Shown here piece after piece: positions 10,325 through 38,716 of a stretch of DNA of 38,716 nucleotides. The stretch comes from an uncultured Candidatus Saccharibacteria bacterium. Lineage in GTDB: Bacteria; Patescibacteriota; Saccharimonadia; Saccharimonadales; Saccharimonadaceae. The position numbers were made by a program, and so were the translations under genes. The notes beneath the pieces were generated by a model. It ran no database searches and had not been told where the DNA came from. It saw nothing but the letters and a program-made list of their open reading frames with translations. Each line of letters opens with the position of its first letter. Positions within the stretch are counted from its first letter, which is position 1. The DNA lies in the NCBI GenBank assembly GCA_946560015.1, contig CAMNUC010000002.1, forward strand, positions 1 through 38,716, in the 5' to 3' direction.

Positions 10325-11449
10325 TTAACAAGCATCGATACTATATAGTGCATACAGAGTCACTTCTGGCTGAACTGAGTCTATAGTGATTTGGTCTCCG
10401 GGTTGGTATTTTACGCTTGCAGCATCATAGCCTTTTGGTGTGGTAGACCATGAGTAAAAGGTAGCGTAGCAACTGCCAGCATAGCCTTGAGGGATTTTCT
10501 TATCGCTGATAGTGAAAGTGTGGGAGGGGGAGGTGGTAGTGTAGGTTTGTGTACTTGGCATCGGCATGAGCGTACCACCTCCGTCTACTGCGGTTCTGAG
10601 TCCGTTAGCGTTATAGCTTAGTTTGTATTCGATCGCTGTCACTTCTGCTGGCTCCATTACTAAAGTTAGCTTCACATTGGTAGCATAGTGTCCGCTTTGC
10701 ATGTCTTCACCAAATTTCACAGCAAAGGCTAGTTTACCACTTGTATTTACGGTGTTGTTTGATATGGTGTCAGCTGCGGCGCTTTTGATTACGCTACCAT
10801 TGCCGGCTAGCATGGGCTTGTAAGTCATCGTGTTGCTATCGGTGTTTACGAGGTCACTCCAGCCCCATCCCCAAGTATTAGCTACAAGATTGTCTCCTAC
10901 TACGCCGCTATTGTCTACATTGCCTACACTAATACTGCTATTCTCACTATGGGAAAGGCTGGTGCTGCCGTCGTCGTAGCTGATGCTCATGCTATAGCTT
11001 TTGATGCTGGATCCATTGATGCAGACGGTATGGTTGCTATAAGCGGTTTCTCCTACTTTAGCGTCTACGCTGTCAATAGTTTCTGGAGTGATGGTGAGGG
11101 AGATGTTGCTATCGTTAGAACTACGACCTGAATCGGCGGGTAGCGGTCGTGAGCTGCAAGAATCATACCAGTCATCATCCATGATACCATCGTTAGCGTA
11201 GGCTTGGTTGCTATGACTTGATATAGGATTAATAAAACCATATAAACCAACTAGGAGGGATAGCATACATACACTAGGTACTAAGTAGCAAACTATTTTA
11301 CTACTCTGCTTGGAGGATAGTGCAGAATTCTTCTCTCCCCACCATTTGTAGAAATAAGTACTTTTACTATGAAGCAAGTTATTAATAAAAGTTAGTGATG
11401 GGTGAGACTTAGGACTTATGTTATCCTTCCTTCTCCTTCTTTGTAGCAT
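10325..11449 (-). CDS. Secreted/surface protein with extended signal region and C-terminal InlB B-repeat-like (Flg_new) module
   Basis: Basic N-terminus, LLHSKSTYFYKWWGEKNS, hydrophobic VCYLVPSVCMLSLLVGLYGFINP, C-term CYATFYSWSTTPKGYDAASVKYQPGDQITIDSVQPEVTLYALY; RBS aaggaggg. Confidence 0.75.
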   Translation of the reverse strand: MLQRRRRKDNISPKSHPSLTFINNLLHSKSTYFYKWWGEKNSALSSKQSSKIVCYLVPSVCMLSLLVGLYGFINPISSHSNQAYANDGIMDDDWYDSCSSRPLPADSGRSSNDSNISLTITPETIDSVDAKVGETAYSNHTVCINGSSIKSYSMSISYDDGSTSLSHSENSSISVGNVDNSGVVGDNLVANTWGWGWSDLVNTDSNTMTYKPMLAGNGSVIKSAAADTISNNTVNTSGKLAFAVKFGEDMQSGHYATNVKLTLVMEPAEVTAIEYKLSYNANGLRTAVDGGGTLMPMPSTQTYTTTSPSHTFTISDKKIPQGYAGSCYATFYSWSTTPKGYDAASVKYQPGDQITIDSVQPEVTLYALYSIDAC

Positions 11450-11530: not shown

Positions 11531-11680
11531 AAATAAAAATGGCACCACAGGCATGGTGTCCAAACCTAACCAATCAACTCGTAACTTTCGTCCTCATCAA
11601 CTGGGCCTATGGCGCCATTTGTATAGATGAAAACAAGTTACGGATTAAAAATTTTATTGAATGTAATGTTAGGTTTGGAC
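11531..11680 (-). ncRNA. Candidate structured leader RNA (copy A) upstream of the surface protein gene
   Basis: 13-bp perfect inverted repeat GTTAGGTTTGGAC (11668-11680)/GTCCAAACCTAAC (11558-11570); inner helix AAGTTACG (11635-11642)/CGTAACTT (11580-11587) plus GATGA/TCATC; loop 11606-11620 complementary over 15 bp (2 GU on minus strand) to tail 11537-11551; U-rich run after tail. Confidence 0.7.
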
Positions 11681-11687
11681 TAACTTC

Positions 11688-38109: not shown

Positions 38110-38139
38110 TTGTACTAATAAAATGCAGTGTGATATAAT
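38110..38139 (+). promoter_or_regulatory. Sigma70-type promoter for leader RNA B
   Basis: TTGTAC (38110-38115), 18 bp, TATAAT (38134-38139) preceded by TGA; predicted +1 at about 38146. Confidence 0.7.
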
Positions 38140-38145
38140 GAGGGT

Positions 38146-38272
38146 GCATACTAAGATGAACAAAATGTTTTTTCTATTGTACGAGAAAATGGCGTCATGA
38201 ACGTCTAATGTGCAATAGAACGTCTTCGGAAGTTTGTTTGTCTTAGGTATGCCCGTTCGTGGCGCCTTTTTT
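38146..38272 (+). ncRNA. Candidate structured leader RNA (copy B) upstream of the surface protein gene
   Basis: P1 GCATACTAAGA (38146-38156)/TCTTAGGTATGC (38241-38252); P2 AACAAA (38159-38164)/TTTGTT (38233-38238); P3 TTCTATTGTAC (38172-38182)/GTGCAATAGAA (38210-38220), 11 bp; loop GGCGTCATGAACG (38191-38203) complementary over 13 bp (2 GU) to CGTTCGTGGCGCC (38254-38266), then T6. Confidence 0.75.
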
Positions 38273-38437
38273 GGTATTAAAAAGCGCATCAAGGATAGGA
38301 TAAATCCTCCAATATATCAAATGGTGTAGATACTACACTAAAAGGATGTATTGTTGTGCGCTATTTTTGTTACCGCTAAATAAGCGCCCCACGAGCAAAA
38401 AGTTATAACTACTATAAACCAAAAGGAGGGCCATAAT

Positions 38438-38716
38438 ATGCGTCACAGGTCTAAATGGAGGAAGAGGAGTGATGATAGTACTATTGGTATCAATAATACA
38501 TCATCATTAGTTAATACTACTTCTTCTACTCACCCATCAACAACTTTTACCATACATAATAACAATAACAATGTACTTAGTAACCTCATTACTAATACAT
38601 CTAGACTGCTTCATAGTAAAAGTACTTATTTCTACAAATGGTGGGGAGAGAAGAATTCTATACTATCTTCCAAGTGGGGTGCTAGCAATAGAATAGCTTA
38701 TTCCTGCTTAGTACCT
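38438..38716 (+). CDS. Surface/secreted protein, paralog of 10325-11449 N-terminus (truncated by window end)
   Basis: MRHRSKWRKRSDDSTIGINN...SRLLHSKSTYFYKWWGEKNSILSSKWGASNRIAYSCLVP; RBS aaaaggaggg; no stop before the window end. Confidence 0.75.
   Translation, partial: MRHRSKWRKRSDDSTIGINNTSSLVNTTSSTHPSTTFTIHNNNNNVLSNLITNTSRLLHSKSTYFYKWWGEKNSILSSKWGASNRIAYSCLVP

Follow-up and report, generated by a model that had tools for sequence, protein, structure and literature searches.

The window, by which we mean the whole stretch of DNA analysed (38,716 nt), contains two copies of a structured leader RNA, designated A and B. Copy B occupies the region 38110-38437, close to the end of the contig, and all of its features are located on the plus strand. 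An extended −10 element of the type TGA-TATAAT (TGATATAAT, 38131-38139), which agrees with the family consensus GTGCTATAAT derived from 103 copies, places the predicted +1, as read from the sequence, near 38146. The leader RNA, taken from this position to the end of the U-tract (38146-38272), was matched by the covariance model R1 at 38144-38272 with a score of 35.6 bits.

The outer helix (P1) of copy B consists of a 5′ strand at 38146-38164 and a 3′ strand at 38233-38252. Its core is formed by GCATAC (38146-38151) and TAAGA, which pair with TCTTA-G-GTATGC (38241-38252), leaving one bulged G (38246), and it is extended further by the pairing GAACAAA/TTTGTTT. The inner helix of 11 bp (P3) is built from TTCTATTGTAC (38172-38182) and GTGCAATAGAA (38210-38220); both P1 and P3 show covariation in homologues. 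The loop enclosed by P3 carries the strand GGCGTCATGAACG (38191-38203), the partner of the tail strand CGTTCGTGGCGCC (38254-38266), and all 13 of 13 positions of the two strands can pair when G-U pairs are counted. The junction contains a small hairpin, CTTCGGAAG (38224-38232), and the tail is followed directly by the U-tract, T6 (38267-38272). The promoter, the outer helix at the predicted +1, the 11-bp helix, the loop/tail complementarity and the T6 run given in the preliminary description of this locus were thus found to match the sequence base for base.

Downstream of the U-tract we identified (i) a second stem-loop, GGTATTAAAAAGCGCA...TGCGCTATTTTTGTTACC, ending in T5 (38273-38374), which recurs in several copies of the same genome and might serve as an additional terminator, (ii) a weak candidate for an element termed D (CCACGAGC, 38389-38396), which by inspection forms eight pairs with the tail and is not significant alone, and (iii) a Shine-Dalgarno sequence, AGGAGG (38424-38429). 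The surface-protein gene that follows (38438-38716) is truncated by the contig end. It starts about 165 nt past T6, and the N-terminus of its product resembles that of the protein encoded downstream of copy A (STYFYKWWGEKNS).

Copy A is located on the minus strand (11535-11682; R1 match of 44.8 bits), 86 nt upstream of a gene for a 374-aa exported protein (10325-11449, minus strand). This copy was retrieved by means of the tail motif, and was missed by a plain BLAST search inside the window. A search with the DNA of copy B revealed more copies in the same genome. This genome also contains a single copy with a tail of another type, GACACC/GGTGTC, described below (L287; G000 C1:284-437, minus strand).

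A new RNA family of Saccharibacteria

Copies A and B are members of a new RNA family of Saccharibacteria, which is absent from Rfam. When both copies, together with eight loci with homologues, were compared with Rfam 15, no family other than tRNAs reached the gathering threshold. The best sub-threshold hits of the leader RNA were far under the cut-off, none of the riboswitch families of Rfam was matched, and no description of this RNA was found in the open literature. The earlier proposal of a new structured RNA is therefore upheld, both by the lack of an Rfam match for either copy and by the strong covariation seen in homologues.

The tail motif is enriched in the genome of origin (12 occurrences, compared with at most 6 in other congeners), and its reversed control occurred 0 or 1 times in genomes of the genus. 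Several hits to this motif (L007, L009-L012, L014, L015, L018-L020 and, likewise, L027, L028, L042 and L284) had no partner loop; these were considered chance matches and dropped.

The model R1, built from 11 copies, matched 44 of the 99 congeneric genomes, and the highest number of scored copies in a genome was at least 30; the E-values of such covariance models are rough. In total, 140 distinct copies were collected, part of them chosen by the loop-tail pattern. The genomes are MAGs and the copies are paralogues, which do not represent independent evolutionary events. Most of the named records with exact pattern matches were MAGs of Candidatus Saccharibacteria, many of them derived from ruminant gut, and viral contigs gave no exact match to this pattern.

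Conserved helices and the loop-tail pairing

The covariation looked for in homologues proved to be strong in both the outer and the inner helices. In a MAFFT alignment of 11 copies, which does not depend on the model, 32 of 51 pairs had changed on both sides, the loop-tail helix included, and the covariation score was reached by none of 500 shuffles. Among 85 distinct copies, aligned by fitting to the model (so that this alignment, A4, leans towards it), 89.7% of the cells were paired and all 38 of the 38 modelled pairs displayed compensatory two-sided changes; the covariation score was 0.725, compared with 0.181 for shuffled sequences and at most 0.100 for slid partners.

Together, P1, P2 and P3 make up a rod, in which the median number of enclosing pairs is 40 (140 copies) and whose folding z-score averaged −8.8, with values below −3 in every copy. 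Its 5′ boundary falls 0-2 nt from the first base of the model in 138 of these copies, and its 3′ boundary leaves 0-3 nt to the tail, also in 138. The stems are nearly wholly different between paralogues, and the loop, the tail and the U-tract are nearly fixed. A U-tract, taken as 5 or more T within 8 nt, was present in 140/140 copies, and the 5′ half of the junction contained a U-rich motif (4 or more consecutive T) in 120/140, compared with 47/140 after shuffling.

The pairing between the loop and the tail, pointed out earlier in copy B, is conserved across homologues by compensation. Of the 140 copies, 139 pair at no fewer than 10 of the 12 positions, a figure somewhat favoured by the pattern-based selection of part of the set, compared with 7 of 140 when the upstream region was shuffled. 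Where tails differ among the paralogues of one genome, the best or nearly best fit to a given tail is usually its own loop, and the pairing therefore appears to take place in cis. G-U pairs far exceeded A-C mismatches, both in the loop-tail helix (215 to 18) and in the stems (284 to 55), which indicates that it is the sense RNA that is conserved, and argues against a palindrome acting at the DNA level. Within 90 nt after the U-tract, an element D with complementarity to the tail above the 95% null was detected in 87 of 127 copies.

P1 and P3 have no bases in common with the loop-tail helix. These pairings would therefore be mutually exclusive only if a pseudoknot were sterically impossible, and they may coexist as a static knot. 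A closed knot with side-by-side geometry predicts that the lengths of P1 and P3 rise together; the observed correlation was negative (rho −0.36), and this argument was not used. The mean energies calculated for the two alternative structures were −46.1 kcal/mol for the rod and −43.4 kcal/mol for the loop-tail state, and in 100 of 140 copies it was the rod that had the lower energy. Such similar values would fit a switch, which is weak evidence when taken alone.

Weak matches found beyond the genus proved to be relatives. An order-wide pattern search matched 17 of 393 genomes, representing 12 genera (one of the matches, L284, being a chance hit), and, with earlier hits added, yielded 19 distinct sequences of an older variant. 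Three pairings compete in this variant. GACACC at the 3′ end of P1 and GGTGTC immediately ahead of the U-tract make up a short local hairpin. The tail strand of this hairpin also pairs with the P3 loop, over 10-11 bp, and the loop in turn pairs with a tail-like segment on the 5′ side, whose complementarity exceeds the 95% null in 14 of the 19 sequences. The loop, the tail and the 5′ segment change jointly (CCGCA/TGCGG, CCACG/CGTGG). Since the search pattern fixed GACACC and GGTGTC, the unbiased pairings are only those of the loop and the 5′ segment; a MAFFT alignment of the set was too gapped for a model. As judged from these pairings, the arrangement is the classic layout of an attenuator (1:2 and 3:4 versus 2:4), in which the local hairpin would be a textbook terminator and the loop-tail helix then the antiterminator. 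The wider spread of the variant at low copy number suggests that it is ancestral.

Promoters, downstream genes and the proposed mechanism

The position of the RNA as a leader of surface-protein genes, first described for copy B, was borne out across the family. In G068, all 20 of the 20 examined copies precede genes for exported proteins on the same strand, and 9 of 10 further FISUMP genes, picked by the gene and not by the RNA, have the RNA. Among 71 downstream proteins, 56 contain the NCBIfam FISUMP domain and 12 match the CPR Pam pilin C-terminal model. The same gene family is present in the RNA-free congeners G003, G010 and G098, where it has a plain promoter of the TATAAT type and a short 5′ UTR. 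Reading frames beginning with RTG near +1 end at different places in the G068 sequences inspected, and a leaderless ORF at +1 was set aside on inspection.

The promoter defined by the consensus is a strong, extended −10 promoter upstream of the RNA. A site comparable to it was found between the U-tract and the ATG in 4 of 103 spacers, compared with 8 of 103 shuffled ones, and thus no second promoter was identified there. The gene therefore appears to require read-through from the leader promoter, and the element must be, at least in addition to any other role, part of the mRNA leader. The order of elements, i.e. a promoter, a leader, a helix with a U-tract, and a same-strand gene with no other promoter, is that of an attenuator.

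The reading that we prefer, with a probability of roughly 55%, is that the RNA acts in cis as a leader and, by conditional termination, controls read-through into a regulon of surface-protein genes. Transcription would start at, or within a few bases of, the rod P1-P2-P3 (approx. 40 bp), and 12-13 nt of the P3 loop pair with the tail located between the rod and the U-tract. The tail could be engaged by alternative partners: the P3 loop, the P1 end and, in most copies, a second loop-like sequence just downstream. Competition at the U-tract would then determine, under some signal, whether transcription terminates in the leader or proceeds into the gene, and many surface-protein paralogues would be set by one shared switch.

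The roles of the individual helices as terminator or antiterminator are what we infer from these pairings. In the preliminary description the loop-tail helix was suggested to act as the terminator; the structured RNA, the pairing and the leader position have stood, but most copies possess a rival local hairpin, which makes this assignment less certain. Within the main family, 110 of the 140 copies can form this hairpin from the end of P1 and the tail (GCACC/GGTGC). It is weak and almost absent in copy B, where the 13-bp loop-tail helix abuts T6; since there is almost no local hairpin, the loop-tail helix would be the better candidate for the terminator in this copy.

Several other explanations were weighed against conditional termination. 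The RNA could be a stand-alone sRNA with its own terminator, acting in trans on the paralogues through element D near their start codons. We regard this as unlikely, although the tails are nearly identical among the paralogues of one genome, complementarity of element D to the tail exceeds the null in the majority of copies given above, and a terminated greA leader has been reported to act in trans (PMC2965389). Where the codes differ within a genome, it is the cis partner that fits best or nearly best, the gene, having no second promoter, would still need read-through, and copy B has a weak element D or none. Quite unlikely, in our estimation, is a static pseudoknot whose helix at +1 shields an abundant surface-protein mRNA from decay, with the U-tract mostly read through. 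The strong promoters, the plausible abundance of surface proteins and the near-coincidence of the start of P1 with the first model base (0-2 nt apart in 138/140) agree with such a protector, which nevertheless leaves unexplained both the exact, conserved U-tract beside the tail and the competing pairings of the older variant.

It is very improbable that the elements are DNA-level sites of recombination or inversion which shuffle promoters and leaders among surface-protein genes. Several contigs do end inside a shared 55-mer beginning at the tail, and serine recombinases flank the module in contigs assigned to Clostridia; however, contig breaks are expected anyway at the repeated 5′ ends of genes, the strong excess of G-U over A-C speaks against such sites, and recombination of DNA would not need the compensated divergence of the stems. 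The least probable explanation is that the structure serves the upstream transcription unit as an inert terminator: a helix and a U-tract are present, but the structure has its own promoter at its 5′ end, and is followed by a same-strand gene with no other promoter.

Related systems and possible mobility of the module

Attenuators of the trp type (1:2 and 3:4 versus 2:4) resemble the leader RNA in having four competing segments beside a U-tract in a 5′ leader, a similarity that is clearest in the older variant. The RNA described here differs from them in that inspection of its 5′ reading frames revealed no conserved leader peptide, its competing partner is the loop of a hairpin, reached across a crossing helix, and a single type of leader precedes tens of paralogues. 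Riboswitches that combine a pseudoknot with a terminator platform share with it a compact 5′ structure, a pairing from a loop to a downstream segment, and a U-tract. They differ in that the stems of our RNA are hypervariable, with no invariant core resembling a ligand pocket beyond the loop, the tail and the U-rich junction; Rfam contains no match to it, and the genes that it precedes encode surface proteins instead of metabolic functions.

Stabilising 5′ UTRs exist on abundant mRNAs of surface-layer or outer-membrane proteins. These also place a 5′-terminal helix on a surface-protein mRNA, whereas the RNA described here has in addition a conserved tail and U-tract, the tail being complementary to an internal loop. 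The ABC-leaders, attenuators found in surveys of premature terminators, are terminator leaders repeated upstream of a multi-paralogue family (PMC2965389). They are similar in this respect and differ in sequence, structure and hosts; the text of PMC2965389 does not mention pseudoknots, Saccharibacteria or TM7.

To our knowledge, little is known about gene regulation in Patescibacteria or about how their host-facing surface proteins are chosen. If the preferred reading, conditional termination, is true, the leader would define, in an episymbiont, an RNA regulon that covers most FISUMP-type surface genes of a genome. The RNA itself would be an addition to Rfam and provides a testable claim on the control of host-contact proteins, and the candidate loop-tail pseudoknot terminator lends itself to assays in a standard in vitro system. 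A bolder extension, which we consider doubtful, is that the shared loop-tail code, through pseudoknot-controlled termination and possible cross-talk between leaders, tunes dozens of host-contact proteins in the manner of antigenic-variation switches, and that the module has crossed to Clostridia on serine-recombinase elements.

Several observations concern the movement and assembly of these loci. The leaders in the pairs L160/L177, L145/L184 and L138/L169 are approx. 99% identical across MAG species (most other pairs show about 80% identity or less), which hints at a recent exchange of loci. Rabbit-gut contigs binned as Clostridia (L171, L175, L180, L192, L193 and L265-L267) contain the same RNA together with a FISUMP gene. 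Large serine recombinases are encoded near L265, L266 and L267 (the last also has an ilvD-type gene nearby), and the Saccharibacterium G012 encodes a recombinase with 62% identity. This suggests that the module composed of the RNA and the FISUMP gene is mobile across phyla, with misbinning of the contigs as the remaining alternative.

In two pairs of contigs with different leaders, L022/L041 (at the ends of contigs C1 and C9 of the genome of origin) and L032/L036 (G015), both contigs end in one and the same stretch of approx. 55 nt that begins at the tail, so that different leaders continue into an identical downstream sequence. This may come either from breaks in the assembly where gene starts are repeated or from a true shuffling of leaders. 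One locus (L006) carries two tandem copies of the RNA (1399-1525 and 1753-1895) on the same strand, approx. 230 nt apart, at a contig end. The starts of the FISUMP ORFs of L171, L180 and L192 contain a long inverted repeat with GTGCCA/TGGCAC, which is similar to the core of the loop and the tail.
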